Assembly (NCBI GenBank): GCA_025351425.1 | Contig: JANXVY010000071.1 | Span: 1-64,000 of the forward strand | Direction of reading: 5' to 3' | Source: Hyphomicrobium sp. | GTDB lineage: Bacteria; Pseudomonadota; Alphaproteobacteria; Rhizobiales; Hyphomicrobiaceae | Length of the DNA stretch: 64,000 nt | In this document: in pieces, positions 14,519-54,324 of the stretch | Numbering within the stretch: position 1 is the stretch's first letter | Layout of the letters: every line of letters begins with the position of its first letter | Program-made: the position numbers and the translations under genes | The notes under the pieces: generated by a model | The model's database searches: none | Told to the model about the DNA's origin: nothing | The model's input: the letters and a program-made list of their open reading frames with translations, nothing else

Positions 14519-17188
14519 TCAGCAGGTCCAGGGGGCGGGGCGGTCCGGCTTAACCTGATAGCGCGCGATGGCTTGTTCGAGCAGGGCCGGTTTGGCGCGG
14601 CCCTCCTGGATGAGGGCGTCGAGGCTTGCCAGCACGATTGAGACGCGGTCGACTTCGAAAAAGGAACGCAAGCGGGCGCGTGTATCGCTGCGGCCAAAAC
14701 CGTCGGTGCCGAGCGCTATGAAGCGTGCATCCAGATAAGGTGCAATGAGGCTCGGGTAGGCGCGCACGTAGTCGGTGGCGGCAATCACCGGCGCACGGCC
14801 GGAAAGGCACTGCGCCAGATGGGATAACCTGCGGGTCGCGCCCGGGTTGAGGCGATTTTCGCGTTCGATCAGCTGGGCCTCGCGCGCCAGTTCGCTGAAG
14901 CTGGTGGCGCTCCAAAGCTCAGCATCGATCCCGAAATCGGCCTTCAGAAGCTTTGCCGCCTCGATGGCTTCACGCAAGATTGCGCCTGACCCGACCAGCC
15001 GGATCGGATCCTTCGCGCCGGCTGCGGCGGGGGCAAAGCAGTAGAGCCCTTTGATGATCGCAGCCTCGCTTCCAGGGGGCAAAGCGGGCTGGGCGTAGTT
15101 CTCGTTCATGACGGTAACGTAGTAGAAAACGTCCTGCTGGCGTTCGACCAGTTCTCGCATTCCGTGGTCCATGATCACGGCGAGTTCGCAGGCGAACGCT
15201 GGATCGTAGGCGCGGCAGTTGGGGACGGTTGCGGCGAGAACGTGGCTGGAGCCGTCCTGGTGCTGGAGGCCTTCGCCGCCCAGCGTGGTCCGGCCGGCGG
15301 TGGCGCCAAACAGGAAGCCGCGGGCACGCTGGTCGGCGGCGGCCCAGATTAGATCGCCGACGCGCTGGAAGCCGAACATCGAATAATAAATGTAGAACGG
15401 CAACATCGTCAGGCCGTTGACGCTGTAGGATGTGGCGGCTGCAACCCAGGACGACAAAGCGCCTGCTTCGGTGATGCCCTCTTCGAGCAACTGGCCGTCC
15501 TTGGATTCCTTATAATACATCAAAGAGCCGGCATCCTCGGGCTCATACAGCTGGCCGACCGGGGAATAGATGCCGACCTGACGGAACAGGTTCGCCATGC
15601 CGAAGGTGCGGGCTTCGTCGGCGACGATGGGTACGATGCGGGGGCCGAGCGCCTTGTCTTTCAGCAGCGCACCGAACATGCGCACCAGCGCCATGGTCGT
15701 CGACATCTCCTTGCCGTCGGGATTGAGCGCAAAGCCGGCATAGGATGCGAGCTTCGGCACCGGCAGGGGATCGGCTTTGGTGCGCCGCGCGGGGAGTGCG
15801 CCGCCAAGCGCCTGACGGCGCTCGCGCAGATACGTCATCTCGGCGCTGCCGTCCGCGGGCTTCCAGAATTTCAAGGCGGCGATATCGGCATCGGGGATGG
15901 GCAGGCTGAAGCGGTCGCGGAAGGCGAGCAACGCTTCTACATCGAGCTTTTTGGCCTGATGGGAGGTATTGCGGGATTCCCCTGCCGCGCCCATGCCGAA
16001 GCCCTTCTTGGTCTTGGCCAGGATCACCGTCGGCTGGCCCTTATGAGCCTTGGCGGCGGCAAACGCTGCATGTAGCTTGCGCATATCGTGGCCGCCGCGG
16101 CGCAACACGTCGATGTCGCCTTCAGACATGTGGGCCACGAGGGCTTTCAATTCCGGGTTCTGGCCGAAGAAGCGCTCGAGATTGTAATGGCCGTCCTTGG
16201 CGCCCAGCGTCTGGTACTGGCCGTCCACGGTCGCGGCAAAAATCTTCAGCAGGGCGTGATGCCTGTCGGCTGCAAACAGCTTGTCCCAGTCGGAGCCCCA
16301 CAGCACCTTGATGACGTTCCAGCCCGCGCCCGTGAACAGCGATTCCAGTTCCTGGATGATCTGGCCGTTGCCGCGCACGGGGCCATCGAGGCGTTGCAGA
16401 TTGCAGTTGATGATGAAGGTGACATTGTCGAGGTTTTCGCGGGCAGCGAGGGTCAGGGCGCCGATAGATTCGGGCTCGTCCATCTCGCCGTCGCCGAAAA
16501 TGCCCCAGACATGTCGGTCATCGGTTGCCGCGAGGCCGCGGTCGCGCAGGTAACGCTGGAAGCGCCCCTGGTAGATCGCGCTGATGGGGCCTAAGCCCAT
16601 AGAGCCCGTGGGAAATTGCCAGAAATTGGGCATCAGCCAGGGGTGTGGATATGAACAAAGCCCGTTTCCGCCCACTTCCTGCCGGTAATTGGTGAGTTGC
16701 TCGTTGGTCAAGCGGCCTTCGAGGTAGGCGCGGGCATAGACGCCGGGCGCGGAATGGGGCTGGAAGAACACCAGATCGCCGCCCGCTCCCGCTGACTCTG
16801 CACCGCGGAAAAAATGATTACAGCCGGTTTCGAAAATTTCGGCGGCCGAGGCGAAGCTTGCAATATGGCCGCCGAGATCGCCGTACGCTGCGTTGGCGCG
16901 CACGACCATCGCAAGGGCATTCCAGCGCACGAGGCCGGTGATGCGCTCCTCGAGTTCGAGGTTGCCGGGATAGGGCGCCTCCATCTCGGAGGGGATTGTG
17001 TTGCGATAGGCTGAAAACGGCGGGACGTGGGTCAGGAAGCCTAGTTGCTGGCCCTGCTCTTCCAATTGGCGCAGCAGGTAGAGCGCGCGCTCGTGGCCGC
17101 TGGTGTCGACCACCGAGCCGAGCGATTGCAGCCACTCGCGGGTTTCCTGAGGGTCGGTGTCTTTGGCGTCCAGATCGAGATGGGTCAT
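14519..17188 (-). CDS. aceE: Homodimeric 2-oxoacid (pyruvate) dehydrogenase E1
   Basis: An 889 aa protein, the usual length for AceE-type homodimeric E1. The ThDP motif GDGEMDEPES (about residue 232) runs to INCNLQRLDGPVRG, which is diagnostic for this family; the second ThDP domain and transketolase C-terminal domain follow. It decarboxylates pyruvate or a related 2-oxoacid and acetylates E2 lipoyl groups. No E2 or E3 gene is adjacent. Alphaproteobacteria normally use the alpha2beta2 PdhAB, so this extra E1 may be specialised (compare MdeB, a 2-oxobutyrate dehydrogenase E1). It lies 57 bp downstream of an SseB-like gene and a sigma-54 activator gene in one direction, suggesting a tie to C3 catabolism. 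ATG 17188 is preferred to TTG 17191. Confidence 0.9.
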   Translation of the reverse strand: MTHLDLDAKDTDPQETREWLQSLGSVVDTSGHERALYLLRQLEEQGQQLGFLTHVPPFSAYRNTIPSEMEAPYPGNLELEERITGLVRWNALAMVVRANAAYGDLGGHIASFASAAEIFETGCNHFFRGAESAGAGGDLVFFQPHSAPGVYARAYLEGRLTNEQLTNYRQEVGGNGLCSYPHPWLMPNFWQFPTGSMGLGPISAIYQGRFQRYLRDRGLAATDDRHVWGIFGDGEMDEPESIGALTLAARENLDNVTFIINCNLQRLDGPVRGNGQIIQELESLFTGAGWNVIKVLWGSDWDKLFAADRHHALLKIFAATVDGQYQTLGAKDGHYNLERFFGQNPELKALVAHMSEGDIDVLRRGGHDMRKLHAAFAAAKAHKGQPTVILAKTKKGFGMGAAGESRNTSHQAKKLDVEALLAFRDRFSLPIPDADIAALKFWKPADGSAEMTYLRERRQALGGALPARRTKADPLPVPKLASYAGFALNPDGKEMSTTMALVRMFGALLKDKALGPRIVPIVADEARTFGMANLFRQVGIYSPVGQLYEPEDAGSLMYYKESKDGQLLEEGITEAGALSSWVAAATSYSVNGLTMLPFYIYYSMFGFQRVGDLIWAAADQRARGFLFGATAGRTTLGGEGLQHQDGSSHVLAATVPNCRAYDPAFACELAVIMDHGMRELVERQQDVFYYVTVMNENYAQPALPPGSEAAIIKGLYCFAPAAAGAKDPIRLVGSGAILREAIEAAKLLKADFGIDAELWSATSFSELAREAQLIERENRLNPGATRRLSHLAQCLSGRAPVIAATDYVRAYPSLIAPYLDARFIALGTDGFGRSDTRARLRSFFEVDRVSIVLASLDALIQEGRAKPALLEQAIARYQVKPDRPAPWTC

Positions 17189-17245
17189 CAAAGGTCACCA
17201 GAACATCTTCAAATCACGTTTGGAACTTTGGCGGGGAAGCCGCAG

Positions 17246-17711: not shown

Positions 17712-19595
17712 TCACGCCTTGTTCGCCCGTTCGCCCAAGGCGCGGTAAATCGTGTTGCGCGACACGCCGAGCCTGCGCGCCGTTTCGCTGATGTTGTTTC
17801 CGGTGGCGGCGTAGGTTTTGAGTATTTGCTCCACGTGCTTGTCGTGCAGCGTCGAAACCGGCTTGCCAGGGGCGTGGGCGCTGATCTCTGGCGGCAGCAC
17901 GGCCTCGGCGAGCGTGTGATCGATGAACCGCGCCTCGTCGTGAAGGGTCAAACGGGAGAGCGCGTTGCGAAGCTCGCGGATGTTGCCGCGCCATTCGCGC
18001 TTCGACAGGTAGTCGACCGCGCAGGGCGTGAGCTGGCGCAATGGGTCGATCTTAGCCATCACGTATTCGGCAATCGCCTGAAAATCCGAGCGCTCCCGAA
18101 GCGGCGGGAGGGTGACTTCCAGCGTGTTCAAGCGGTACAGCAAGTCGGAGCGAAACCGGCCGGCCGCGATTGATTTGGCGAGATCGGCGTTGGTCGCCGA
18201 GACGAGCAGTACGTCAACCTGGCGGTTCACGCCGCCAACCGGACGCACGGTCCAATCGTCGAGAAAGCGCAACAACACCGATTGCAGGGCGAAGGGCATA
18301 TCGCCGATTTCGTCGAGGAACAGCGTGCCCTTATCGGCTTCCTGGAACAAGCCGCCGGATCCGCCCTTGCGGGCACCGGTAAAGGCGCCTTCGCCATAGC
18401 CGAACAACTCGGCCTCGATCAGCGTTTCTGGAAGGGCTGCGCAGTTGACTGGGACGAAAGCGCCGGTGCGGCCGCTGGCGAGATGGGCGTGGCGGGCAAG
18501 TTGCTCCTTGCCGGTTCCGGTTTCGCCGCGGATGAGGATTGGCATCTTGCGCTGGGCTGCAGCTTCCGAGCGCCGCACAATGGCCGTGACACCAGCGTCG
18601 GCGCATACGAAGTTCGCCTTGGCGTGGACAGGCGCGCGCGATCTGGGCTGCGTCTGCATCATCATCGGTGTGATGGAGGGGTGCTCCACGGTCGCCACGT
18701 AACTGCTGCCCACAAGATCTTGCAGGCGGCCGCGCTGGTTCTTGGCGGCCGTATCCATCAAAACGCCGAACGGGGTGCGGAAAATCTGATGGAAGTCACT
18801 GCCGGGCGTAGCCGGCAGGCCGTGGAGAAGGCCGCGTGCCGATTGATTGGCTGCCAGCACTTGCCCGTCTCTGTCGACGGCGAGCAGGCCGGCACTGAGC
18901 GTGTGCAAGAACTCGCCGCGGGTGTGAAAGGCAATCAACAGGTCGCTGCGATGGCGCTCGCGCAACAAGCCATTCTCGATCTGGGTTGCCGCCATGGCGA
19001 CTAGAGCTCGGGTATGGGATTGCCGCGAGAGGCAATCGGACGACGCATCGAGGATCCCCGCCATCGAGCCGTCCGGGGCAAACACCGGCGAGGCGGCGCA
19101 GGTCAGCGGCGAAAAACATGGAAAAAAATGCTCGTTTCCATGCACGACCACCGATCTCTTGAGGTGTGCGACTGTCCCTAACCCATTAGTTCCGCATAAC
19201 GATTCCGACCATATGCTGCCCGGCCTGATGCGCGATGCGTGGGCGGATTGTGCAAAGCTGGTGTCGGCGACGAAATCGAGCAGAAGTCCCTCTGGGGTCG
19301 CGAATGCGATCAGAAAATTCGAGCCCGAGATTTGCTGGTGCAGTGTCTGCATCTCGGCCAGTGCCAGGCCACGAACGAGGTTATGCCGATCCTGTTCGGT
19401 TTTCAGGACCGCAGCGCTCGCCATCTCGATCGGCGGCGGCTTGAGCATGTCGAGGCCGTAGTCGACGCAACGAACCCAGCTGTCATAAATATCGGGGGCC
19501 AAGAGCTCAGCAGGTGGCGAACCCCGAGCCCCGAGAGTCACGTGGGCCGGGCTCATGGGGGCCGGACTCATAGGATTTGTGACAGAAAAATGCAT
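17712..19595 (-). CDS. Sigma-54-dependent activator, AcoR/MimR type
   Basis: A 627 aa bacterial enhancer-binding protein. The N-terminus holds a GAF-like sensor (about residues 80-215) and a PAS-like segment (about 225-290). The AAA+ domain (about 335-560) has Walker A GETGTGKE, the sigma-54 contact loop GAFTGA and Walker B LFLDEIGD. A Fis-type helix-turn-helix ends the protein (NISETARRLGVSRNTIYRAL). This architecture matches AcoR and the regulators found beside propane/acetone monooxygenase operons (MimR). AGGGAGG precedes the ATG. It faces the monooxygenase operon across a 566 bp region containing a -24/-12 promoter and palindromes, so it very probably activates that operon in response to a substrate or intermediate. 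Confidence 0.9.
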   Translation of the reverse strand: MHFSVTNPMSPAPMSPAHVTLGARGSPPAELLAPDIYDSWVRCVDYGLDMLKPPPIEMASAAVLKTEQDRHNLVRGLALAEMQTLHQQISGSNFLIAFATPEGLLLDFVADTSFAQSAHASRIRPGSIWSESLCGTNGLGTVAHLKRSVVVHGNEHFFPCFSPLTCAASPVFAPDGSMAGILDASSDCLSRQSHTRALVAMAATQIENGLLRERHRSDLLIAFHTRGEFLHTLSAGLLAVDRDGQVLAANQSARGLLHGLPATPGSDFHQIFRTPFGVLMDTAAKNQRGRLQDLVGSSYVATVEHPSITPMMMQTQPRSRAPVHAKANFVCADAGVTAIVRRSEAAAQRKMPILIRGETGTGKEQLARHAHLASGRTGAFVPVNCAALPETLIEAELFGYGEGAFTGARKGGSGGLFQEADKGTLFLDEIGDMPFALQSVLLRFLDDWTVRPVGGVNRQVDVLLVSATNADLAKSIAAGRFRSDLLYRLNTLEVTLPPLRERSDFQAIAEYVMAKIDPLRQLTPCAVDYLSKREWRGNIRELRNALSRLTLHDEARFIDHTLAEAVLPPEISAHAPGKPVSTLHDKHVEQILKTYAATGNNISETARRLGVSRNTIYRALGERANKA

Positions 19596-20076: not shown

Positions 20077-20092
20077 TGGCACGGACGTTGCT
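20077..20092 (+). promoter_or_regulatory. Sigma-54 (-24/-12) promoter of the monooxygenase operon
   Basis: The sequence TGGCACGGACGTTGCT matches the RpoN consensus TGGCACG-N4-TTGCW. The invariant GG (20078-20079) and GC (20090-20091) are separated by exactly 10 bp. A transcript starting near 20103 would have a leader of about 60 nt before the dehydrogenase ATG at 20162. The divergent sigma-54 activator gene supports function. Confidence 0.9.
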
Positions 20093-20161: not shown

Positions 20162-21205
20162 ATGCAGGCAGCAGTACTGCACGCATACGACACGGCTCTA
20201 ACAGGAAAAGAATTTGTAAAGTTCGAAGATGTTCCCGATCCCAAGATTACGCGCCCGACGGACGTCATTGTACGTATTGGAGGTGCGGGCGTATGCAGGA
20301 CAGACTTGCACATCGTCGAGGGGATTTGGCGGGATAAGGTCGACATAAAATTGCCCTACATCATGGGGCATGAAAATGCTGGCTGGATCGAGGCCATTGG
20401 AAATGGTGTCGACGGATTGAAAGTCGGTGACTCCGTTATATGTCATCCACTGGTTACGAGCGGGCACTGCCTAGCGTGCAGGCGCGGCAACGATATGCAT
20501 GCAACGGAATCGGCCTTTCCGGGGATTAATGCCAACGGTGGATACGCCCAGTATCTTCTCACAGGGCAGCGTTCGATCATCAAGTTGCCGAAGACGCTCG
20601 CCCCCAAAGACGTGGCGCCGTACACCGACGCGGGGCTCACCGCCTACAGGGCGGCAAAGAAAGCGTCGCGGCACCTCCTGCCCGGACAGAAAGCGGTCGT
20701 CATCGGGGCCGGCGGACTGGGACACATCGGCATCCAGGTGCTGGCGGCCTTGTGCGCAGCGGATATCATCGTCGTTGACCGTTCGCCCCAGTCGCTGGAA
20801 CTCGCCAAATCGTGCGGCGCGCACCACCTGGTGTCGGCTGACGGCAATGAAGTCGAAGCTGTGAAGGCATTGACCGGCGGCCATGGCGCCGAAGCGGTGA
20901 TTGATTTTGTCGGCGAGGGCGATGCGATTGCCCGCGGCTTGGCGATGACGCGAAACGACGGGTACTATTATATCGTCGGCTACGGCGGTAAAATCGATAT
21001 CCCGACGATTGATATGGTCGTTTCGGAGAAAACGATTGTCGGCAATCTCGTTGGCACTTACGCCGAGTTGGTCGAGTTGATGGAGCTTGCCGACCGCGGC
21101 AAGGTTCAATTGCGGACACGGGAATACAAATTGAGCGAGGCGAATACGGCCTTGCACGATCTGCACGATGGCAAAATCCACGGACGTGCGGTGTTGATCC
21201 CATGA
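20162..21205 (+). CDS. Zinc-dependent secondary alcohol dehydrogenase
   Basis: A 347 aa medium-chain dehydrogenase, likely oxidising 2-propanol to acetone with NAD. Catalytic-zinc residues Cys44 (GVCRTDLH) and His69-Glu70 (GHEN) are present, and Asp155 may be the third ligand. The Rossmann motif GAGGLGHIG is at 181-189. The structural-zinc loop is degenerate: only Cys102 and Cys105 remain of the usual four, with Ser99 and Ala113 at the other positions. It is the first gene after the sigma-54 promoter, with GGAGAG upstream of the ATG. Its stop overlaps the next start (ATGA). Position and similarity to NAD-dependent Adh1-type enzymes fit secondary alcohol oxidation in propane catabolism; activity on primary alcohols cannot be excluded. 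Confidence 0.85.
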   Translation: MQAAVLHAYDTALTGKEFVKFEDVPDPKITRPTDVIVRIGGAGVCRTDLHIVEGIWRDKVDIKLPYIMGHENAGWIEAIGNGVDGLKVGDSVICHPLVTSGHCLACRRGNDMHATESAFPGINANGGYAQYLLTGQRSIIKLPKTLAPKDVAPYTDAGLTAYRAAKKASRHLLPGQKAVVIGAGGLGHIGIQVLAALCAADIIVVDRSPQSLELAKSCGAHHLVSADGNEVEAVKALTGGHGAEAVIDFVGEGDAIARGLAMTRNDGYYYIVGYGGKIDIPTIDMVVSEKTIVGNLVGTYAELVELMELADRGKVQLRTREYKLSEANTALHDLHDGKIHGRAVLIP

Positions 21206-21570
21206 ATGCAGGTAAGCAAGGCGAGAAATTGACTGCAGAAGAGGCCGCCATCGTCGAGGCGGCAAGGGAGCAGATGATTGCTCGGCACAAGCTTATCGAA
21301 GGCATGATTCACAACAACCAGCTCCAGCTGAAGAATGAAGCGGCGCGCGGCGGGGCTGAGATTGAACGAGAGTGCGCCCGGCGGGATGCGGCCCTGCCGG
21401 GGGCAGGACCGGAAGCCCTTGCCGCGGTCGAAGAGGCTAATCAACGCCTCAGGGCGCTGGACGATGAGCATCGCAGGCTTGTGGCCGAGCGGGAGTTCTT
21501 GAACACCTCCCTGCTCGAGTTCGAAAGCGGCACTTCGGTTGAAAACCATAAACGCTCAGGGCATTCGTGA
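21202..21570 (+). CDS. Small helical protein of the monooxygenase operon, unknown
   Basis: A 122 aa protein rich in Glu, Ala and Arg, with long predicted helices at about residues 10-60 and 66-105 that look coiled-coil forming. There is no signal peptide or membrane segment. It starts on the stop codon of the alcohol dehydrogenase (ATGA) and ends on the start of the next small gene (TGATG), so it is translationally coupled on both sides. I recognise no family. Its position between the dehydrogenase and the hydroxylase suggests an accessory role in monooxygenase assembly or as a scaffold, but nothing in the sequence proves this. Confidence 0.65.
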   Translation: MNAGKQGEKLTAEEAAIVEAAREQMIARHKLIEGMIHNNQLQLKNEAARGGAEIERECARRDAALPGAGPEALAAVEEANQRLRALDDEHRRLVAEREFLNTSLLEFESGTSVENHKRSGHS

Positions 21571-21980: not shown

Positions 21981-23645
21981 ATGTCGTTAACGCTAAATAA
22001 GATTACAGCCCAGAAGGGCATCTCGATCGGAGAGGCCGTAAGCCGGGTCGCAGACCTCGGCTGGACACCAAGCTATGTTCAGGAAGCGATGACCTTCCCG
22101 ACCGACTACAAGATCACGAAGACCCCGCGCGACCCGATGAAACAGGTCCTGCGGTCATACTTCCCGATGCAGGAAGAGAAAGACAATCGCGTCTATGGCG
22201 CGCTTGATGCTGCTCTTCGCGGCGACATGTTCCGTAACGTGGAACCGCGCTGGATCGAGTGGATGAAGCTGTTCCTGGCCATCATCCCCTTCCCGGAAAT
22301 CTCCGCCGCTCGCTCGATGGCCATGGTCGCTCGTCTGGCGCCAGGCGAAGAACTGCGCACGGGAATGGCCATGCAAATGGTCGACGAATTCCGGCACTCC
22401 ACCATTCAGATGAACCTGAAGAAGTGGTACATGGAAAACTACATCGATCCCGCCGGGTTCGATATCACTGAGGCCGCATTCGGCAAGTGCTACGCCACCA
22501 CCATTGGCCGGCAGTTCGCAGAAGGCTTCCTCACGGGCGATGCCATCACGGCGGCCAACATCTACCTCACGGTGGTTGCCGAAACGGCCTTTACCAACAC
22601 GCTGTTCGTCGCCATGCCGTCGGAAGCCGCTCGTAACGGCGACTACGCATTGCCGACGGTGTTCCTCTCCGTGCAGTCGGACGAAGCGCGCCATATCGGC
22701 AATGGTCACTCCATGCTGATGGCGATGATCAACGATCCCTCGAACCATCAGCTGCTTGAGCGCGATCTGAAGTACGCATTCTGGCAGAACCACGCGATCG
22801 TCGACGCCGCTATCGGTACCTTCATCGAGTACGGCACGACGAACCGCGACAAGACCAAGGAATCCTATGCGGAAGCGTGGCACCGCTGGATTTATGAAGA
22901 CTACTATCGGACCTATATGCTGCCGCTCGAAAAATACGGCATCAAGATCCACCACGACGACGTCGCCGAAGCCTGGAACCGCATCGTCAAGAAGAACTAC
23001 GTCCACAAGACCGCTCAATTCTTCACGGTCGGCTGGTCATTCAACTTCTGGCGCATCGAAGCCCAGACGGAGAAGGACTTCGAGTGGTTCGAGCACAAGT
23101 ATCCGGGTTGGTACGCCGAGTTCGGCGACTTCTGGAAATGGCACGAGAAGCTGTCGCATCCGGGCGAAAAGAACATCGCCTTCAACGCCGATGTTGGATA
23201 CATCTATCCACATCGCTGCTGGAGCTGCATGGTCCCGTGCCTGATCCGCGAAGACTTCTGCTTCGACGAAGTCGACGGCAAGATCTATACCTACTGCTCG
23301 GAAGGTTGCCGGTGGACCCACAAGGTCGCCTTCGCCGCCGAGTACGAAGGCCGTCCGACGCCTGCGATGGGCCGCTTCAGCGGCCGCCGCGAATGGGAAG
23401 ATTGCTACCATGGTTGGGACCATGCCGATGCCGTCAAGGATCTCGGCTTCCTCCGCTCCGATGGCAAGACGCTCATCGCCCAGCCGCACCTGCGCTTCGA
23501 CGCGAAGGATATGTGGACACTCGACCACATCCGCGGCAACACGCTCGGCAGCCCGCTGCGCGGGTTCCGTGCGCTGTCCCCGGCAGAACGTGAAGTGGCG
23601 GCGGCTGAGTACCGCAAAGGGTACAAGATCAATCCCTGCCACTAA
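21981..23645 (+). CDS. mimA: Soluble diiron monooxygenase hydroxylase, alpha subunit (propane/acetone type)
   Basis: A 554 aa catalytic subunit. The diiron ligands are all present with the spacing of MmoX: Glu106, Glu136 and His139 (DEFRH), Glu201, Glu235 and His238 (DEARH). A C-terminal Cys-rich segment (HRCWSCMVPC…YCSEGC, about 410-445) is typical of this subgroup and may bind zinc. Gene order alpha–reductase–beta–coupling protein, followed by amidohydrolase, DUF59 and GroEL, matches the MimABCD/PrmABCD group, which hydroxylates propane at C2 and acetone at the methyl group. It is not a methane monooxygenase arrangement (no MmoY/Z/C order). AAGGAG precedes the ATG. Substrate range is inferred from family and neighbours. 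Confidence 0.92.
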   Translation: MSLTLNKITAQKGISIGEAVSRVADLGWTPSYVQEAMTFPTDYKITKTPRDPMKQVLRSYFPMQEEKDNRVYGALDAALRGDMFRNVEPRWIEWMKLFLAIIPFPEISAARSMAMVARLAPGEELRTGMAMQMVDEFRHSTIQMNLKKWYMENYIDPAGFDITEAAFGKCYATTIGRQFAEGFLTGDAITAANIYLTVVAETAFTNTLFVAMPSEAARNGDYALPTVFLSVQSDEARHIGNGHSMLMAMINDPSNHQLLERDLKYAFWQNHAIVDAAIGTFIEYGTTNRDKTKESYAEAWHRWIYEDYYRTYMLPLEKYGIKIHHDDVAEAWNRIVKKNYVHKTAQFFTVGWSFNFWRIEAQTEKDFEWFEHKYPGWYAEFGDFWKWHEKLSHPGEKNIAFNADVGYIYPHRCWSCMVPCLIREDFCFDEVDGKIYTYCSEGCRWTHKVAFAAEYEGRPTPAMGRFSGRREWEDCYHGWDHADAVKDLGFLRSDGKTLIAQPHLRFDAKDMWTLDHIRGNTLGSPLRGFRALSPAEREVAAAEYRKGYKINPCH

Positions 23646-23694: not shown

Positions 23695-23722
23695 GGTGGG
23701 AGCCATTAAGTTGGCTCCCACC
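23695..23722 (+). other. Intercistronic stem-loop between hydroxylase and reductase genes
   Basis: Perfect 10 bp arms GGTGGGAGCC / GGCTCCCACC enclose the loop ATTAAGTT. No T-tract follows, so it is not a standard terminator. It may protect the 3' end of the hydroxylase message or lower expression of the downstream reductase, which is needed in smaller amounts. Confidence 0.7.
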
Positions 23723-23755
23723 ACACGAAGAACTGTGCGCCGTTACTTGAGGTTT

Positions 23756-24802
23756 ATGATGTCGGGAACCGCCGTACACAATGTCCGTTTCGAGCCGCTC
23801 GGAGTCGAAATGGAAATCGAAGAGGGAGAGACGGTGCTCGACGCTGCGTTCCGCCAAGGCGTCTCACTGATGCACGGCTGCAAGGAGGGCCAGTGCGGGA
23901 GTTGCAAGGCGCGTCTGTTGGACGGCGACATGGAACTTATGAAATATTCGACGTTCGCGCTCCCGGAATACGAAAGCGAGACCGGCCATGTGCTGCTGTG
24001 CCGAACGCACGTCTTCAGCGACGCGAGTTTCGAGCTGCTGAATTACGATGAGGATCTGCTCAGCCGCTCGATTGCCGTCAAGACGTTCGAGGGGAAGGTG
24101 AAACAGATTTCCCAGCTCACGCACGATATTCGGCTATTAGAAGTCGAAATCGACCAGCCGCTGCGGTTTTGGGCCGGTCAATACGTCGATTTGTGCATTG
24201 CCGGAAAAAACATCACACGCGCCTATTCAATGGCGAGTCCTCCCGCTGATGGGACCCAGCTGAAATTCATCATCAAGAAATACCCGAACGGAGCGTTTTC
24301 GGCTCTGCTCGACGGCGAGTTAAAGCCAGGCGATGCGGTAACGGCCAAGGGACCTTATGGCACGTGTTTCCGGCGTGAAGGACGCCCGGGGCCGATGCTG
24401 CTGATTGGCGGCGGATCAGGGATGTCCCCGCTGTGGTCGATCCTGAACGATCACATTGCGAGCGGGGAGCAGCGGCCGATCCGGTTCTTCTATGGGGCTC
24501 GCACCAAGGCGGACCTGTTTTATTTGGCGGAATTTGCGGCGCTGACGGAAAAGCTGAATGATTTTAGGTTCATTCCGGCTTTGTCGCATGCTGAGGCGGG
24601 TCAGGACTGGGCGGGCGAGCGGGGCTTCATCCATGAGGTCGTACAGCGCACGCTTGAAGCGGAAAAGCTTGCAGGACAGATGGATGCCTTCGGTTGCGGG
24701 CCCACCCCGATGATCGATGCGCTCCTGCCGGTGCTGATGAAAATGGGCGTGGAGCCTGAGCGGATCTACTTCGACAAATTCACGCCAGCGACGAAACCCT
24801 AA
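23756..24802 (+). CDS. mimB: Monooxygenase reductase, [2Fe-2S]/FAD
   Basis: A 348 aa NADH-dependent reductase that delivers electrons to the diiron centre. The N-terminal ferredoxin domain has CKEGQCGSC and a fourth Cys in LLCRTH. The FAD-binding motif RAYSMASPP and the NAD-binding motifs GGGSGMSPLW and GCGPTPMID follow, giving plant-type ferredoxin–FNR order. I start at 23756; the next codon, ATG 23759, lies six bases after GAGG and may be the true start. A longer frame to 23696 would cross the intercistronic hairpin and is unlikely. The downstream gap of 164 bp to the beta gene has no recognised element. Confidence 0.9.
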   Translation: MMSGTAVHNVRFEPLGVEMEIEEGETVLDAAFRQGVSLMHGCKEGQCGSCKARLLDGDMELMKYSTFALPEYESETGHVLLCRTHVFSDASFELLNYDEDLLSRSIAVKTFEGKVKQISQLTHDIRLLEVEIDQPLRFWAGQYVDLCIAGKNITRAYSMASPPADGTQLKFIIKKYPNGAFSALLDGELKPGDAVTAKGPYGTCFRREGRPGPMLLIGGGSGMSPLWSILNDHIASGEQRPIRFFYGARTKADLFYLAEFAALTEKLNDFRFIPALSHAEAGQDWAGERGFIHEVVQRTLEAEKLAGQMDAFGCGPTPMIDALLPVLMKMGVEPERIYFDKFTPATKP

Positions 24803-24966
24803 ACCAGGAGACCTAGACCTATAGTGAGTGGACGGAGTGGGTTTTGGTACGAGCAGGAAAGTCGCGAAAGCAAGAACCGCTCTGGCAACATTTTGGCGGT
24901 CAACCACAATAAGAAACGATGACGGACACGAGCAATAAACCAATAAACGAACCAAGGGAGAAAACC

Positions 24967-26043
24967 GTGAAACAAGAAGACGTCAAGCCGGTCAAGTCGG
25001 GCGCTGCAGGCGCTGCCGTATTTCCGGGCTCGGATAGCCGGAAGTACAACTACTTCGAGCCCAAGGGCCGCAAGGCGACCCATTATGAAGATATGACCGT
25101 CGACGTGCAGCCGGATCCGGAACGGTATCTGCTGCAGGATTGGATTATCTCGTTTCCCGACGGCACGCCGACTTATTCGAAGGATTGGACTGCCGCGCGC
25201 AGCTCTGACTGGCACAAGTTCCGCGCCGTCGACCAGGAATGGGAACGGACCCACTATCAGCGCCAGTCGACGATTTGCGGCATGGTGCAGAGCACGATTG
25301 AAAACGGCCGCAAATCGGGTGCGCCCTCCCGCTTCGACCCAGCCTGGGTCAAGGTTCTGCAGGACCATGTCGGAGCCTACAAGCATGCAGAATTCGGTCT
25401 TGGCACCTCGACCATGCAGGCGCAGCGCTACGGTTATACGCAGATGGTCAACAATGCCATTTTAACCAACTCTTCCTATAAGCTGCGTTTTGCGCAGGAC
25501 ATTACGCTCTACCTGAGCGAGATCGGCCTGGATATCAAAGGGTTCGACCCGTTGGCCGGCAAGAAGCATTGGCTCGACGACCCGATCTGGCAGGGTACGC
25601 GTAAGTCGATCGAATCAATCATGGGCTCGAGCGACTATCTGGAGCAGTATTTCGCCACCAATATCGTGTTCGAACCATTGGTCGGCGAGTTGTTCCGGTC
25701 CGGTTTCGTCATGCAGGCGGCTGCTGCACAGAACGACTTCATTACCCCCGCTGTCTTCTCGGCGGCCGAAGCCGATTACGAGCGCAATCTGGCCAATACG
25801 GTAGAATTGGCGCACCTCTTGGCGACTGATCCGACGCACGCCGAAAAGAATAAGGCCTTGTTCAACGGCTGGCTTGAAAAGCATTGCGGACTAGCGCTGG
25901 AAGCAGCGCAAAACCTGCAACCGATCTGGTCTCAGCCGCGTGTAAAGGTTGCGGTATTTAGCGATGCCCTGGCGGCAGCGAAAAACCGCGTGAAGGCCAT
26001 CGCCTCCGAGATCGGGCTGAAAGTTCCAGCCAAGCTCGCCTAG
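24967..26043 (+). CDS. mimC: Monooxygenase hydroxylase, beta subunit
   Basis: A 358 aa protein of the non-catalytic hydroxylase subunit family, structurally like alpha but without iron ligands (no paired ExxH). Recognisable parts are the N-terminal segment SRKYNYFEPKGRKATHYEDM, the DWHKFRAVDQEWER helix and the long helical core with SDYLEQYFATNIVFEPLVGE. GTG 24967 is chosen because GGGAG lies six bases upstream; an in-frame ATG at 24919 has no ribosome site but would give 16 more residues. It pairs with the alpha subunit in an (alpha-beta)2 hydroxylase. Confidence 0.88.
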   Translation: MKQEDVKPVKSGAAGAAVFPGSDSRKYNYFEPKGRKATHYEDMTVDVQPDPERYLLQDWIISFPDGTPTYSKDWTAARSSDWHKFRAVDQEWERTHYQRQSTICGMVQSTIENGRKSGAPSRFDPAWVKVLQDHVGAYKHAEFGLGTSTMQAQRYGYTQMVNNAILTNSSYKLRFAQDITLYLSEIGLDIKGFDPLAGKKHWLDDPIWQGTRKSIESIMGSSDYLEQYFATNIVFEPLVGELFRSGFVMQAAAAQNDFITPAVFSAAEADYERNLANTVELAHLLATDPTHAEKNKALFNGWLEKHCGLALEAAQNLQPIWSQPRVKVAVFSDALAAAKNRVKAIASEIGLKVPAKLA

Positions 26044-26076: not shown

Positions 26077-26436
26077 ATGTCAGCAGTAGTCCATGGCAAT
26101 ATTTTCAAGGATATGAAGCACATCGACTTCAAGGATACGATTTCGCATCAATGCGGGTTGACTTTGAACGACAGCGTCGAGGCGCGGGCAATCGCCGACG
26201 TCATGGGGCGGAAAAAGGGGATTACGGTCACCTTCATGCCGGCCATGATCCGTATCGACGGCGAAGGCCTGATCGAGTTCAAAATGGATGAAATATCCGA
26301 GGAACTCGGACGAACAATGACGCCGTATCTGTTCGAAATCTCGACGTCGACATTCTATGGCCGCATGGTGATGGTCGACGAAAACACCGTTACGCTGTTT
26401 GGCGATATGGATGCGATGCGCTCCTTTATCGAATAG
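26077..26436 (+). CDS. mimD: Monooxygenase coupling/effector protein
   Basis: A 119 aa protein of the MmoB/DmpM regulatory family. Typical features are the central VGVTIADVMG-like helix with VEARAIADVMG, a strand FMPAMIRIDGEGLIEF and the following acidic helix. Such proteins bind the hydroxylase near the active site and tune substrate access and electron transfer. A GGAG site precedes the ATG. It is the last structural component of the four-component monooxygenase, and a hairpin follows it at 26464-26494. Confidence 0.88.
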   Translation: MSAVVHGNIFKDMKHIDFKDTISHQCGLTLNDSVEARAIADVMGRKKGITVTFMPAMIRIDGEGLIEFKMDEISEELGRTMTPYLFEISTSTFYGRMVMVDENTVTLFGDMDAMRSFIE

Positions 26437-26527: not shown

Positions 26528-27538
26528 ATGTATAAGACCGCTACGGGGCAAGAGATTTTTGTCATCGACGGCCATACCCACTTCTGGGATGGTAGCCCCG
26601 CCAATCAGAAGAACATACACGGCAAGCAATTCATCGAGTGTTTTTATGCCTATCATCAAAACCTGAGCCCGCCAGCCGAACGCTGGGAAAAAAGCAAGTT
26701 CGAAAAATATGATGCCAAGACGATGCATGACGATCTCTTCGTGCACGGCTACGACGACATGGCGATCCTTCAGCCGACCTACCTGACGGATTTTTATAAG
26801 CACGGCTTCAACACCACCGAACGCAACTCGGCACTGAAGAAGGCGTATCCAGACCGCTTTATCTTGAACACGGCCTTCGATCCCCGTGACGGAACCAAGG
26901 GGCTCGAGCACCTGCACGAGATGGCGGAAAAGCACAAAATTCAGGGTGCAAAGCTATATACCGCCGAGTGGAAGGGCGAGTCCAAAGGCTATAAGCTGAC
27001 CGACAAGGAGTCCTATCGATTTCTGGAAGCGGCTCAAAAGCTTGGGATCAAGAACATCCATGTCCACAAGGGCCCGACGATCATTCCGTTGAACAAAGAT
27101 GCGTTCGACGTAGGTGACATCGACGATGTGGCGACGTCATTTCAGGATCTGAATTTCATTGTGGAACATTGCGGTCTGCCGCGCCTCGATGATTTCTGCT
27201 GGATCGCCACCCAGGAAACCAATGTCTACGCCGGGATCGCAGTCGCGCTGCCCTTCATTCACTCGCGGCCTGCCTATTTCGCCCACGTCATGTCCGAACT
27301 TCTGTTCTGGATTGGCCCGGACAAGATTTTGTACGGCAGCGACTACGGTATCTGGACGCCGAAATGGCTGATCGACAAATTCATGGCGTTTGAAATTCCT
27401 GCCGACGTCACGAAAGAAACGGGCTCGGTGCTGTCGCTCGAAAACAAGACCAAGATCCTGGGCCTCAATGCGGCGCGGCTGTATGGGATCGATATCGAAG
27501 CACAGAAGAAGAAGCTCAAAACGGCCGTTGCCGCGTAA
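26528..27538 (+). CDS. Amidohydrolase_2-family protein of the monooxygenase operon
   Basis: A 336 aa TIM-barrel metal hydrolase/decarboxylase. HTH in DGHTHFW (about residues 15-20) gives the first metal ligands; KLYTAEWKG, HVHKG and HCG then GSDYG in the C-terminal half are in positions typical of amidohydrolase_2 proteins. GGAGG lies before the ATG. Homologues sit in the same place in propane/acetone monooxygenase operons of actinobacteria and alphaproteobacteria, yet their reaction is not established as far as I know. It may hydrolyse or decarboxylate a pathway product or help metal loading of the hydroxylase. Fourteen base pairs separate it from the next gene. Confidence 0.85.
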   Translation: MYKTATGQEIFVIDGHTHFWDGSPANQKNIHGKQFIECFYAYHQNLSPPAERWEKSKFEKYDAKTMHDDLFVHGYDDMAILQPTYLTDFYKHGFNTTERNSALKKAYPDRFILNTAFDPRDGTKGLEHLHEMAEKHKIQGAKLYTAEWKGESKGYKLTDKESYRFLEAAQKLGIKNIHVHKGPTIIPLNKDAFDVGDIDDVATSFQDLNFIVEHCGLPRLDDFCWIATQETNVYAGIAVALPFIHSRPAYFAHVMSELLFWIGPDKILYGSDYGIWTPKWLIDKFMAFEIPADVTKETGSVLSLENKTKILGLNAARLYGIDIEAQKKKLKTAVAA

Positions 27539-27552
27539 CGCGAAGGTGTATC

Positions 27553-28332
27553 ATGACGATCCAAATTTGCGGGATGGATCGGCAAAGTGAGGTTTGGGCA
27601 CGGTTGGAAACTGTGACTGATCCAGAGCTCGACGAGTCGGTAACGGATTTGAAATTCGTGACCGGCGTCGATGTGGACGCGCAAAATCGCGTCCACATCG
27701 GTTTTCGTTTGCCGACCTATTGGTGCGCGCCGAACTTTTCTTTCCTCATGGCGGATGATATGCGGCGCGCCGTGCTGGAGTTGCCCTGGGTAACGGGTGT
27801 GTCCGTTGTCCTCGGCGAACATATGTACGCCGACAAAATCAATGCTGGGCTCGCGGGCGGGCTGTCGTTCCAGGACACGTTCGGTGCTGAGGCCGACGGT
27901 GATCTGGAAGATCTGCGCCAGACGTTCCTCGTCAAGGCGTTTCAGCGCCGGCAGGTAGCATTGCTCGATCATATGCTCGCCGCCGGGTTCCAGCCTATTC
28001 AGATCGTCGAGGTAACGCTTGCACAACTCGACCTGCTCGGGCTGGACGCCCAGGGCGCGCGGCTTCGTGACCGCTACCTTGATCGGCGCGCTGTCGTTGG
28101 CCGAGCATTGCCCACGATGCGCGCGTTCGTCGATGCCAAGGCCGAGCCTTTGACGGCAGATGGCCTTGCTGCCTACGTCAAAGCTTTGCGGCGGGTGTGT
28201 ATCAACGCGGAATTCAACGGTGCGCTGTGCCGGGGGCTTTTGTCCGTTCGCTTCGACCTCGAAACCCCCTTCGTTCCGAGCCAAACCAAAAACAGTTCCG
28301 ACAACAAGACCGCGCTAGAGCCGCAGCATTGA
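27553..28332 (+). CDS. MIP18/DUF59-family protein
   Basis: A 259 aa protein. The N-terminal 100 residues show the DUF59/MIP18 fold: VWARLETVTDPELDESVTDL, a strand region and the conserved segment LPTYWCAPNFSF with one cysteine. DUF59 proteins (for example SufT and PaaD) assist Fe-S cluster assembly or iron enzymes. The C-terminal 150 residues are helical and not recognised. It ends 18 bp before the GroEL gene. The position suggests maturation of the hydroxylase diiron site or the reductase cluster. The GAAGG site supports the ATG. Confidence 0.75.
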   Translation: MTIQICGMDRQSEVWARLETVTDPELDESVTDLKFVTGVDVDAQNRVHIGFRLPTYWCAPNFSFLMADDMRRAVLELPWVTGVSVVLGEHMYADKINAGLAGGLSFQDTFGAEADGDLEDLRQTFLVKAFQRRQVALLDHMLAAGFQPIQIVEVTLAQLDLLGLDAQGARLRDRYLDRRAVVGRALPTMRAFVDAKAEPLTADGLAAYVKALRRVCINAEFNGALCRGLLSVRFDLETPFVPSQTKNSSDNKTALEPQH

Positions 28333-28350: not shown

Positions 28351-29988
28351 ATGCCTAAGATGATGTTGCACGACGAAGCGGCCCGCGAAGCGCTCGGCAG
28401 GGGTGTCGCCAAATTGACCAAGGCCGTCAGCGGGACGCTGGGCCCCAAAGGCATGAACGCGATCATGGACCGGCCGCAAGGTACGCCGCTCGTCTCGCGT
28501 GACGGCGTCAGTATCGCGAGCGAAATCGAGCTGGAGTGCCCCTTCGAGAACATGGGCGCACAGGTGCTGCGGGAAGTTTCCAAGCAGACCAACGAAGTCG
28601 CGGGCGACGGCACGACGACGGCGACGGTGCTGGCCAACGTCCTGGTGCAGGAGGGGCTGGCGCGCCTCAAGGCAGGCGCCAATCCCGTCGAACTGGTCGA
28701 GGGATTGGAACTGGCGGTTACCGAGACCATCGAAGCGCTCAAGAAATCGGCCAGGCCGGTTGATGGCCCAAAGGGGATCCGCGCCATAGCGAGTATCGCG
28801 GCCAACGATAGCAAGCTTGGCGAAATGGTGGCCGAGGCGTTCGAACGCGCGGGCAACCAAGGCATCGTCGCGGTGGAGTTCGGTTCGACGGTCGAGACGA
28901 CGCTCGAAGTCATCGAGGGCATGGCTTTCGACCGCGGGTATCTTTCGCACCACATGGTCACCGATGTCGAGCGGATGCAGGTCGTGTTGGACCATCCCTA
29001 CATTCTGATGACTGACAAGAAGCTCCAGAGCGCATCCGAGCTCGAGGGGCTGTTTTCTCTGATCGACAAGAGCGGTCGTCCGCTCTTGATCATCGCCGAA
29101 GAAGTGGCGCCGTCCGTGATCATGTCGCTTTTGGCGCGCCGTGAGAAAAACAACTTCAAAGTCGCCGCCATCCATCCGCCGGAATACGGCCACTGGCGCA
29201 AGGCCTTGCTAGAAGACATCGCGATCACGACCGGGGGGCGGGTCATTTCCGGCGAACTCGGCGGGTCGGTCGACAAGGTAACGCTTGCTGATCTCGGCGG
29301 CGCACGGCAGGTGCGGATCTCATCCAACAAAACGCTCATCACCGCCGGCGAAGGCAAGTCTGCACATATTGAGGCTCGGCGCGAGCAGGTCGAGCGTCAA
29401 TTCGAGGCGGCACCCGACAATATCGAACGCGACAAGTTCACCGAGCGGCTGGCCAAGCTGTCGGGGGGAACGGCGGTCATTCTGGCAGGCGGCGCAACGC
29501 CGGTCGAGCAGAAGCGCCGGACGCAGATGATCGAGGATGCCATCAACGCAACGCGAGCTGCAATCGAGGAAGGGATCGTTCCTGGCGGTGGTGTGGCATT
29601 CGTCAAGATCGCGCCTGAACTCGACGGGCTCATCAAAAAACTGAAGGGCAGCGCCAAGCAGGGGGCCGAACTCGTCCAACACGCGCTCAGTCAGCCGCTC
29701 TTCCGGATCGCCGCAAATTGCGGCCTGGACGGACAGGCTGAGGTTGCCAAGGTCGCCAAGGCCAAGAACGGCCATGGCCTCGACGCCCGGAACGGTGAAA
29801 CGGTCGATATGTTCAAGGCCGGTATCATCGATCCGGTCAAGGTCAGCTACTGCGCGGTGCGCAACGCCGGCTCCGTCGCGGCCTTGATCCTCACAACGCA
29901 GACCCTCATCGCCAAGAAGCCTGATAATTTCGATCCGACAGCAGGTCCTGCCCTTGGCGGCGGCGCCGAGCTGCTGGGCCGGCCGTAA
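28351..29988 (+). CDS. mimG: Operon-dedicated GroEL-type chaperonin
   Basis: A 545 aa group I chaperonin. ATPase motifs VAGDGTTTATV (residues 83-93) and the EDAINATRAAIEEGIVPGGG segment with its catalytic Asp are intact. The usual C-terminal GGM repeats are missing: the protein ends LGGGAELLGRP. No groES lies nearby, so it either uses the housekeeping GroES or works alone. Homologues (MimG) beside propane/acetone monooxygenase genes are needed for folding the hydroxylase large subunit. AGAGG precedes the ATG, and the spacing to the upstream gene is only 18 bp, so it is in the same operon. Confidence 0.9.
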   Translation: MPKMMLHDEAAREALGRGVAKLTKAVSGTLGPKGMNAIMDRPQGTPLVSRDGVSIASEIELECPFENMGAQVLREVSKQTNEVAGDGTTTATVLANVLVQEGLARLKAGANPVELVEGLELAVTETIEALKKSARPVDGPKGIRAIASIAANDSKLGEMVAEAFERAGNQGIVAVEFGSTVETTLEVIEGMAFDRGYLSHHMVTDVERMQVVLDHPYILMTDKKLQSASELEGLFSLIDKSGRPLLIIAEEVAPSVIMSLLARREKNNFKVAAIHPPEYGHWRKALLEDIAITTGGRVISGELGGSVDKVTLADLGGARQVRISSNKTLITAGEGKSAHIEARREQVERQFEAAPDNIERDKFTERLAKLSGGTAVILAGGATPVEQKRRTQMIEDAINATRAAIEEGIVPGGGVAFVKIAPELDGLIKKLKGSAKQGAELVQHALSQPLFRIAANCGLDGQAEVAKVAKAKNGHGLDARNGETVDMFKAGIIDPVKVSYCAVRNAGSVAALILTTQTLIAKKPDNFDPTAGPALGGGAELLGRP

Positions 29989-30042
29989 CCAGTTTTATCC
30001 GGCGTACGGCCGTTGCGGCTGACCCATCAATAGGAGGAGCGT

Positions 30043-30537
30043 TTGACCAGTTCTCAGTCTACTGCGCAGCATGAGGCCGGAAATCGCCCTCTCGCAACGG
30101 AGCCGCTATACGTGTTGGTATATCGCAGTCACAGTGCGTTATCGGCGCATACTGTGGATGCAGAATTGGCTAATATTCTGCGCGCAGCGCGGGCCAAGAA
30201 TTCGGCACTCGATATAACCGGTGCGTTGTTGCTATACGACGATTGGTTCGCACAGGTTCTGGAAGGACCTGAAAAGGCGGTGCTCGCGTTGTTCGAACGG
30301 ATCAAATCCGACAGTCGCCACAATAGCATCGAGGTTATGGAGCAGCGGCCCGCTCCAGCCCGTGCTTTTGCGCGGTGGGCCATGGCCCATGTGGGCGAGC
30401 ATGGAGACCCGGACATCCCCCTGATGGCTTCGGGGGACAAGCTCGTTCCAGCCGCCGCTTGGAAGCCAACGGGGGAGCAAGAGCTGTTGCTTGCTCAATT
30501 GCGGCAGGCGACCCGGGGGTACGGGCGGGGATCCTAG
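30043..30537 (+). CDS. BLUF-domain blue-light receptor
   Basis: A 164 aa protein made almost entirely of a BLUF domain, which binds FAD and senses blue light. All key residues are present: Tyr27 (LVYRS), Asn53 (AKNSALDITG), Gln71 (FAQVLEG), and Trp112 with Met114 (RWAM), aligning with Tyr21, Asn45, Gln63, Trp104 and Met106 of AppA. No output domain follows beyond about residue 125, so it is a short BLUF protein acting by protein contact. It starts at TTG 30043, preceded by a perfect AGGAGG; no in-frame ATG lies upstream of the domain. It lies 54 bp after the GroEL gene in the same direction and before the first terminator, so it is probably part of the monooxygenase operon. Confidence 0.88.
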   Translation: MTSSQSTAQHEAGNRPLATEPLYVLVYRSHSALSAHTVDAELANILRAARAKNSALDITGALLLYDDWFAQVLEGPEKAVLALFERIKSDSRHNSIEVMEQRPAPARAFARWAMAHVGEHGDPDIPLMASGDKLVPAAAWKPTGEQELLLAQLRQATRGYGRGS

Positions 30538-30641: not shown

Positions 30642-30667
30642 AAAGCCGCCTCACAGGGCGGCTTTTT
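30642..30667 (+). terminator. Rho-independent terminator of the monooxygenase/BLUF operon
   Basis: Arms AAAGCCGCC / GGCGGCTTT around TCACAG are followed by a T-tract to 30667. It is the first strong terminator after the alcohol dehydrogenase start, supporting one transcription unit of about 10.5 kb including the BLUF gene. Confidence 0.9.
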
Positions 30668-33510: not shown

Positions 33511-33540
33511 CGTGTCCAACGTCAGCGCAACGTTGCGGGA

Positions 33541-33788
33541 GTGCTTCTGAGGAAAAGTGTGCAGCGGTTTTCCTCAAAAAGAAGCACGACCAAGCAAAGA
33601 AAGTGCTTCTGAGGAAAAGCGTGCAGCGGATTTCCTCAAAAAGAAGCACGACCAAGCAAAGAAAGTGCTTCTGAGGAAAAGTGTGCAGTGGTTTTCCTCA
33701 AAAAGAAGCACGACCAAGCAAAGAAAGTGCTTCTGAGGAAAAGTGTGCAGCGGTTTTCCTCAAAAAGAAGCACGACCAAACAAGGACT
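33541..33788 (+). repeat. Four tandem 62 bp hairpin repeats
   Basis: Copies begin at 33541, 33603, 33665 and 33727 with an exact 62 bp period and few substitutions. Each can fold: GTGCTTCT-GAGGAAAA pairs with TTTTCCTC and, across a four-A bulge, AGAAGCAC. The fourth copy is truncated. A fragment of the 50.6 kb repeat family (GCGGAAAATGCTCTAG) follows at about 33817. It matches the dispersed palindromic repeats seen in Hyphomicrobiales; no coding content. Confidence 0.85.
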
Positions 33789-33827: not shown

Positions 33828-33907
33828 CTAGCAGCGTCCGCGGCTACCAGAGGTCGCGCCAGATGGGCTAGCAGCGTCCGCGGCTACCAGAGGTCGCGCC
33901 AGATGGG
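33828..33907. repeat. 40 bp tandem duplication covering the 3' end of the next gene
   Basis: Copies at 33828-33867 and 33868-33907 are virtually identical and start CTAGCAGCGTCC. The right copy holds the last eight codons and stop (33884-33886) of the minus-strand exported protein; the left copy is a non-coding duplicate downstream of that stop. Confidence 0.85.
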
Positions 33908-34597
33908 GTAGACGCCGATGACGAGCTTGGTGCCTTTGAGTTCGCGCGTTGAAGCGTTGAGGTACGTCAGGCCGAACTTGGCCTGGAAGGTCTTGGTGAC
34001 CTGCGCTTGGACAGTCGCCTCGAGCGCCTTGGGGTTATCCTTGTTGAAGTTGACCGTGTAGGTCACGTCGCCGATGGCATAACGCTGATTTTGAAACAGC
34101 CCCGCCTTGCCGCCGTTGTAGTCGCGCATGCGATAGCGGGGGTTGCGGACTTCTTCGGCGCAACCGGGGCGGTTCAGGATTTCCTTGCGCAGCTGGCGGA
34201 GGTCTTCGGCTGAGTATTCGTAAACGGTCACGTTGTCGACGGTCATCGTCACGCTGTCGACGAAGTTGCCTTTGAAGGCGGCGTTGAGCGTCGTCGAGAC
34301 GGTCGCACCGGCGTCGAACTGCCAGCCGGAGGTGGTGCCAAGGCCTGTCTGTTGGACGCCAGCCTTGAGTATGTTCTCGTTATTCTCGATGTCGACTTTG
34401 TTTTTGCAGACCATTTCGAGGCGCAACACGCCCTTGTAGGTCCAACCCATAATGAGCGAGCCAGGCGTGAAATAGGAGGCCGCCGGCGAAACCCGGTAGA
34501 CGGTGTATTCGTTGAGGACGACCTCAGCGGCCTTGTCCTGGGCGTGTGCGCCCGTCGACAGGAATACCAACGCCGTGAAAGTAGCCCAAAACCGCAT
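33884..34597 (-). CDS. Exported protein of unknown function
   Basis: A 237 aa protein starting with a signal peptide (MRFWATFTALVFLSTGAHAQ, cleavage after AHA). The mature part is beta-rich, with a repeated polar pattern and several aromatic strands; one cysteine pair (about Cys64 and Cys145) may form a disulfide. I recognise no family. ATG 34597 is chosen for the signal peptide; a longer in-frame start at 34699 lacks it. Its 3' end is part of a 40 bp tandem duplication. It seems monocistronic. Confidence 0.65.
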   Translation of the reverse strand: MRFWATFTALVFLSTGAHAQDKAAEVVLNEYTVYRVSPAASYFTPGSLIMGWTYKGVLRLEMVCKNKVDIENNENILKAGVQQTGLGTTSGWQFDAGATVSTTLNAAFKGNFVDSVTMTVDNVTVYEYSAEDLRQLRKEILNRPGCAEEVRNPRYRMRDYNGGKAGLFQNQRYAIGDVTYTVNFNKDNPKALEATVQAQVTKTFQAKFGLTYLNASTRELKGTKLVIGVYPIWRDLW

Positions 34598-50572: not shown

Positions 50573-50742
50573 CTAGAGCATTTTCCGACGAAGTGGATGC
50601 CGGTTCGTCGAAGAAAATGCGACAAAATCAGAAACCTAGAGCATTTTCCGACGAAGTGGATGCCGGTTCGTCGAAGAAAATGCGACAAAATCAGAAACCT
50701 AGAGCAAAATTCCGAGTCCGTAGGATCGGAATGTGCTCTAGG
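50573..50742 (+). repeat. Two tandem 63 bp hairpin repeats and a related palindrome
   Basis: Copies start CTAGAGCATTTTCCGACG at 50573 and 50636. Each contains AGCATTTTC…GAAAATGC and GACGAA…TTCGTC arms. From 50698 a third, diverged palindrome runs CTAGAGCA…ATTCCGA / TCGGAAT…TGCTCTAG to 50742. This is a dispersed repeat family typical of Hyphomicrobiales; a fragment occurs at about 33817. Confidence 0.85.
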
Positions 50743-53961: not shown

Positions 53962-54130
53962 TGAGTAACCCCAAGGTCTTGGCAACGCGGGACAGGATTA
54001 TGGTCATACAACCGTTGAGACGACTAGGCCGCGATTCGGCGGTCAGGGTCAAACGGGGCCACCACGATTTTGCGGCTGTGTGACATGAGGTTTCTGACCA
54101 TCGTTAGGCGGCGTCTGGCGGACGTAACAC
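53962..54130. other. Promoter region of the marR-like gene
   Basis: A 169 bp stretch with an additional GGCGGTCAGGG sequence near 54037 that resembles the start of the 80 bp units downstream. No coding content seen. Confidence 0.4.
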
Positions 54131-54290
54131 CGGCGGTCAGAAGTTGCGACCGCTGGTATTCGCGCGCGGGGTTGGTGGGGCGGCCGCGCGCAAAGCAGAG
54201 ACCCTTATATCGGCGGTCAGAAGTTGCGACCGCTGGTATTCGCGCGCGGGGTTGGTGGGGCGGCCGCGCGCAAAGCAAAGACCCTTATCC
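54131..54290 (+). repeat. Two tandem 80 bp hairpin units
   Basis: Units start CGGCGGTCAGAAGTTGCGACC at 54131 and 54211 and differ at only a few bases. Each folds twice: GCGGTC…GACCGC, and GCGCGCGG…CCGCGCGC. The period of 80 is not a multiple of three and no gene is seen. A third copy of the opening bases forms the left arm of the hairpin at 54282-54324. Confidence 0.85.
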
Positions 54291-54324
54291 CGGCGGTCAG
54301 AATGTCTGACCGCCGGGATAAGGG
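54282..54324. terminator. 20 bp perfect hairpin at the tusA 3' end
   Basis: Arms 54282-54301 and 54305-54324 (CCCTTATCCCGGCGGTCAGA and its complement) are perfectly complementary around ATG. It begins 4 bp after the tusA stop. There is no T-tract, so termination might be by stem alone or the element could have another role. Confidence 0.6.

Follow-up and report, generated by a model that had tools for sequence, protein, structure and literature searches.

A short BLUF photoreceptor is encoded at the end of a putative propane/acetone monooxygenase (mim) operon in Hyphomicrobium sp., and proteins of the same subfamily recur at mim loci of other Alphaproteobacteria. The window (the whole 64,000-nucleotide stretch of DNA that was analysed) also holds a divergent regulator gene beside this operon, and light-dependent binding of the BLUF protein to that sigma-54 activator is our leading model, advanced tentatively and at somewhat less than even confidence. 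It takes this place because the BlsA-AcoN system offers a precedent and because the BLUF gene is clustered here with a regulator of the same type. The wider proposal, that a dedicated short-BLUF subfamily with its own effector tail was recruited several times to the propane/acetone monooxygenase loci of Alphaproteobacteria and makes the oxidation light-controlled, we regard as close to an even call. Light may well control propane/acetone consumption in these bacteria.

The BLUF gene and its product

The gene (30043-30537, +) starts with TTG and encodes 164 amino acids. A ribosome binding site, AGGAGG (30032-30037, +), lies 5 nt ahead of the start and bears out the ideal site described in the first-pass annotation. 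The protein matches the Pfam BLUF domain (PF04940, E=1.2e-27) over residues 22-115, and the profile is covered end to end (positions 1-92 of 92). The photocycle set of Tyr27, Asn53, Gln71, Trp112 and Met114, with the Trp and Met in strand 5, is complete, as had been noted from the sequence at first sight, and is invariant in the seven aligned tailed proteins; the stretch that carries these residues aligns to BlrB (2byc) and further BLUF structures. Close BLUF pairs give dN/dS values of 0.05-0.12, which indicates purifying selection. The protein would be expected to bind FAD and to undergo a BLUF photocycle.

BLUF is the sole Pfam domain in the protein, and with no enzymatic output domain it falls among the short BLUF proteins (range ~140-165 amino acids). 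Residues 120-164 (30400-30534, +) form a C-terminal tail, ending in RGYGRG, that is conserved in the subfamily alignment (A1) and common to all eight known members, including those at loci L122 and L059. Its conservation throughout the subfamily and its place beyond the BLUF core are what would be expected of an effector surface, which is the role proposed for it here. The protein is most likely a single-domain (short) photoreceptor with a subfamily-specific C-terminal tail. An AlphaFold model built from a 6-row alignment has a mean pLDDT of 73.5, that is, moderate confidence, and the same grade applies to the predicted fold of the tail. The model has a ferredoxin-like fold plus two helices and superposes on the AppA BLUF domain (1yrx) with an rmsd of ~2.1 A over 98 columns; it also matches the BLUF structures of PixD, BlrB and BlsA.

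Among solved structures, the best sequence match is to BlrB of Rhodobacter sphaeroides (2byc; E 4e-13), itself a short BLUF protein, but the match stops at the BLUF core (residues 22-118), which leaves the tail without a counterpart in sequence. BlsA (6w6z) likewise matches in the BLUF core only. The cyanobacterial PixD proteins (Slr1694, Tll0078) have the same fold (Foldseek E ~1e-8) and the same domain layout, yet they lie outside any catabolic operon; PixD works with PixE in phototaxis. No second BLUF gene was detected in the genome from which the window comes, which is 98.7% complete.

The mim operon

Pfam searches of the open reading frames gave the gene order ADH-orf122-mimABCDEFG-BLUF, with all genes on the forward strand. 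The operon begins with a zinc alcohol dehydrogenase gene, ADH (20162-21205; ADH_N 4.6e-26, ADH_zinc_N 1.3e-23), whose stop is overlapped by orf122 (21202-21570), a small protein gene without a Pfam match. The monooxygenase genes follow: mimA for the hydroxylase large subunit (21981-23645; Phenol_Hydrox 3.2e-63), mimB for the reductase (23696-24802, with a start possibly further downstream; Fer2, FAD_binding_6, NAD_binding_1), mimC for the hydroxylase small subunit (24919-26043; Phenol_Hydrox 2.4e-76) and mimD for the coupling protein (26077-26436; MmoB_DmpM 9.3e-24, and NCBIfam MimD 9.4e-28, which is under that model's cut-off). Behind these lie the amidohydrolase-like mimE (26528-27538; Amidohydro_2 2e-48), the FeS-assembly-like mimF (27553-28332; FeS_assembly_P 3.8e-13) and mimG (28351-29988; Cpn60_TCP1 1.6e-70, NCBIfam GroEL), for a GroEL-like chaperonin serving the monooxygenase. 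The cluster therefore has the marks of a mim-type operon, namely MimA, MimB, MimC and MimD together with a dedicated GroEL-like MimG, and its relatives keep the same order. MimA is 76-90% identical to other MimA proteins of Alphaproteobacteria. The orf122 product is hydrophilic and probably a coiled coil, and small ORFs superficially like it occur upstream of mimA in Rhodobacteraceae.

MimABCD-type enzymes are known to hydroxylate propane. They also hydroxylate acetone, and MimG matures the hydroxylase (PMC7176365). By family membership, the substrate of the window's operon would be propane/acetone (or phenol). The mim clusters of Mycolicibacterium and Amycolatopsis share the hydroxylase, reductase, coupling protein, amidohydrolase-like protein, GroEL-like MimG and ADH with the window, but the available part of the same source names no BLUF gene in them, whereas the window's operon ends with one (PMC7176365).

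The stop of mimG and the start of the BLUF gene are separated by 54 bp, in the same direction, as had been reported at first reading. A consensus scan found no promoter-like or terminator-like site in this gap, and its RNA fold is unremarkable (z -0.92). The terminator earlier placed behind the BLUF gene was recovered as a stem-loop with a T tail (30642-30665; fold z -2.5), with the caveat that this terminator-like element scores on both strands; it lies between the operon and a convergent porin gene, which it faces. Membership of the BLUF gene in the operon, which the first-pass annotation had proposed, is argued by the gene order, by the signal-free gap and above all by the relatives found at mim loci elsewhere. 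The BLUF gene is accordingly expected to be co-transcribed with the mim genes.

Candidate promoter and divergent activator

A candidate sigma-54 (-24/-12) promoter, TGGCACGGACGTTGC (20077-20091, +), lies ahead of ADH and is the window's only perfect match to TGGCAC-N5-TTGC. Several relatives have similar perfect sites ahead of ADH or mimA. Divergent from the operon lies a gene (17712-19595, -) for a sigma-54-dependent activator of 627 amino acids, a candidate partner of the BLUF protein, with GAF (7e-9), AAA+ (Sigma54_activat 2.8e-56) and Fis-type helix-turn-helix (HTH_8 1e-7) domains and a GAFTGA motif at residue 403.

The regulators at BLUF-bearing Rhodobacteraceae operons are only ~30% identical to this activator, and the DNA ahead of mimA in those operons showed no clear sigma-54 site; a single conserved interface between BLUF and activator is therefore not obvious. 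Most mim loci with this type of activator are without a BLUF gene, so the activator does not need BLUF.

BLUF relatives at other mim loci

The BLUF protein alone was used as the query against genome contigs of one genome per species (84,980 species), in a scan that works by short peptide patterns and may miss members. The five closest relatives that it returned (52-57% identity) all belong to Rhodobacteraceae (Tabrizicola, Cypionkella and others), and each is encoded directly behind mimABCDEFG-ADH. There ADH sits between mimG and the BLUF gene, whereas in the window the BLUF gene directly follows mimG. The Rhodobacteraceae loci come from metagenome-assembled genomes, and the five separate assemblies agree.

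A profile built from these sequences gave two strong matches among 390 Rhodobacteraceae genomes (E<1e-80, next 2e-23), both in mim operons. In the window's order, where 297 genomes were scanned, it found the window's protein and one in genome G139 (1e-63, next 8e-28); the next-best BLUF proteins scored at least 35 orders of magnitude worse than members. In the sampled genomes, the subfamily was found only together with mimA (2/390 in Rhodobacteraceae, 2/297 in the window's order). Genome G139, of another family in that order, carries mimA and has its BLUF gene on a different contig, but the ends of the two contigs share an exact 141-bp overlap, which falls within a WD40 gene that runs divergently from mimA. 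An unlinked BLUF gene in G139 is ruled out by this overlap and by the splitting of the WD40 gene over both contig ends. The restored order is the mim operon (-), the WD40 gene (+), a small ORF (+) and the BLUF gene (+), which places BLUF in a separate unit divergent from the operon.

As such, seven of the eight known members of the subfamily are at mim loci. The eighth, in G088 (44% identity), is a solitary BLUF gene with no mimA detected in a genome that is 78% complete. The first-pass annotation had proposed a search next to homologous loci, and this search turned up relatives at the mim loci of other families and of another order, with nothing to refute the association. Viral contigs and plasmids yielded no tailed-subfamily BLUF, and none accompanied the 19 plasmid records that hold most of a mimA. 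Replacement of BLUF by a LOV-type photoreceptor at other mim loci was also considered, and a simple motif scan found no such case.

Frequency and evolutionary history of the association

When loci were sampled by mimA, a BLUF gene was found at ~3/31 readable mim loci, which makes it a minority accessory. The rate was 1/17 in the sample from the window's order (leaving out the window itself and four loci cut at contig ends), 0/2 elsewhere in the class and 2/12 in Rhodobacteraceae. The overall rate is rough, since the Rhodobacteraceae were sampled around G479, which had first come to light via its BLUF gene. Most mim loci thus go without BLUF, and the earlier remark that such a gene is no usual member of them holds. 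Co-occurrence of the BLUF subfamily and mimA gave p = 0.002 by Fisher's test on the pooled samples minus the window and G479, a value that rests on two genomes and takes the number of mim genomes for the 297-genome sample from a larger sample of 397. The physical linkage of BLUF and mim genes is stronger evidence than this co-occurrence. No open-access paper was found with both "BLUF" and "propane monooxygenase", and a wider search of the open-access literature on the association, in which an earlier report could be missed, gave nothing relevant past BlsA/AcoN.

In a tree of MimA+MimB+MimC+MimG, the grouping of all BLUF-bearing operons as one clade is rejected (p-AU 1e-43), and with it a single origin of such operons; at least three changes in BLUF presence or absence are needed. 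G139 was scored as BLUF-less in this tree, its linkage having been found afterwards, but as it sits in yet another branch the number of changes is not lower. Since the BLUF-bearing operons are not one lineage, the link must have arisen several times, or several times have been retained in the face of losses. At one Rhodobacteraceae locus (L035), MimA, MimE, MimG and ADH resemble those of BLUF-less operons, while the BLUF protein groups with the other four from Rhodobacteraceae, a gene-by-gene mismatch which argues for gain or loss of the BLUF gene by itself. Support for the whole subfamily is strong (99/99), and a clade of the six operon-end BLUF proteins apart from those of G139 and G088 gave a p-AU of 0.55.

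Possible mechanism and alternative roles

In Acinetobacter baumannii, acetoin catabolism is released from repression in blue light, when the short BLUF protein BlsA binds AcoN, a protein described as a match to sigma-54-dependent regulators of the Fis family (PMC6595428). Like the window's protein, BlsA has one BLUF domain with the photocycle residues and a C-terminal part, and it controls a small-molecule catabolic cluster through a regulator of the type that is also encoded in the window. It differs in being a global regulator according to its authors, not a dedicated member of a catabolic operon, and in that its target is acetoin and not propane/acetone. The earlier suggestion that light tunes the monooxygenase or its activator fits both the anatomy of the locus and this precedent.

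In our leading model, transcription from the sigma-54 promoter at 20077 would run through the mim operon as far as the BLUF gene, its last member, and the BLUF protein would sense blue light through bound FAD. The C-terminal part would then bind the divergent GAF/AAA/Fis activator in a light-dependent manner, which would raise or lower transcription of the operon. As the amount of BLUF protein would be proportional to the operon's own expression, it could serve as a feedback switch. If this is true, blue light gates the use of propane/acetone by some soil and water bacteria, and the turnover of these trace gases is tied to daylight. Few targets of short BLUF proteins are known, and the locus would also give these proteins a compact genetic setting that unites the receptor with a candidate activator, a promoter and the output enzymes; it could provide a blue-light switch for sigma-54 promoters.

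The BLUF protein could instead be co-expressed with the Mim proteins and act elsewhere during growth on these substrates; photosynthesis genes, photo-oxidative stress and motility are examples of what it might affect. Reaction-centre genes (PufLM) are present in the host and no other BLUF was detected there, BlsA is termed a global regulator (PMC6595428) and the G088 member has no mim locus, all of which would suit such a role. A general role would leave the repeated mim linkage in different lineages unexplained, and PufLM is present in 5/7 BLUF-bearing against 7/10 BLUF-less mim genomes, with two BLUF-bearing genomes lacking it; phototrophy as an explanation was rejected as PufLM does not separate the two groups. 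We consider action elsewhere a lesser possibility and one of the two main rivals of the leading model. The other, rated about as high, is post-transcriptional control, in which light would alter assembly or activity of the monooxygenase through binding of BLUF to a Mim protein (the hydroxylase, MimG or the flavin reductase MimB). Against it, most Mim systems function without BLUF, ADH separates mimG from BLUF in Rhodobacteraceae, and the G139 gene is in a separate divergent unit. On the other hand, BLUF would be made together with the Mim proteins and its gene is directly behind mimG in the window; moreover, among BLUF-bearing operons MimA is ~80% identical but the regulators differ strongly, so that a partner among the Mim proteins would vary less. 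No BLUF protein with a monooxygenase as its target is known to us.

It is rather improbable that the BLUF flavin senses redox, oxygen or temperature and not light, reporting the oxidative load of monooxygenase turnover. BlsA responses are temperature-dependent (PMC6595428), and uncoupled MimABCD may yield reactive oxygen (PMC7176365), but the full set of photocycle residues is retained under purifying selection and the 164 residues include no Cys-rich or haem-binding part. Least probable is a passenger gene that was inserted by chance at the operon end and has no role there. Although the rarity of BLUF among the readable mim loci would agree with this, the members linked to mim are spread over several operon lineages and two positions, and in a genome of 4 Mb the chance that a gene lies no more than 25 kb from mimA is roughly estimated at ~1/100.

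Other observations

PufL and PufM are encoded outside the window in the same genome (G000:C66:50541-52225), which makes the host a probable anoxygenic phototroph with a propane/acetone monooxygenase besides; counting the window's genome, 12 of the 17 mim genomes tested have PufLM. A WD40-repeat gene of ~370 codons lies near mim operons at L126:749-1858 and ~30 other alphaproteobacterial mim loci, often divergent from mimA, and is absent from the window's own operon lineage. Near the mim cluster, the window encodes a pyruvate-dehydrogenase-E1-like protein of 890 amino acids (14519-17191, -) and a ThDP enzyme (1666-3285, -), which are perhaps part of the metabolism of the cluster's C3 products. 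Tandem repeats are also present: a 62-bp unit in 3.9 copies with 96% matches (33540-33783) is followed by a 40-bp repeat (33828-33911), and shorter arrays lie at 50573-50706 and 54129-54302.
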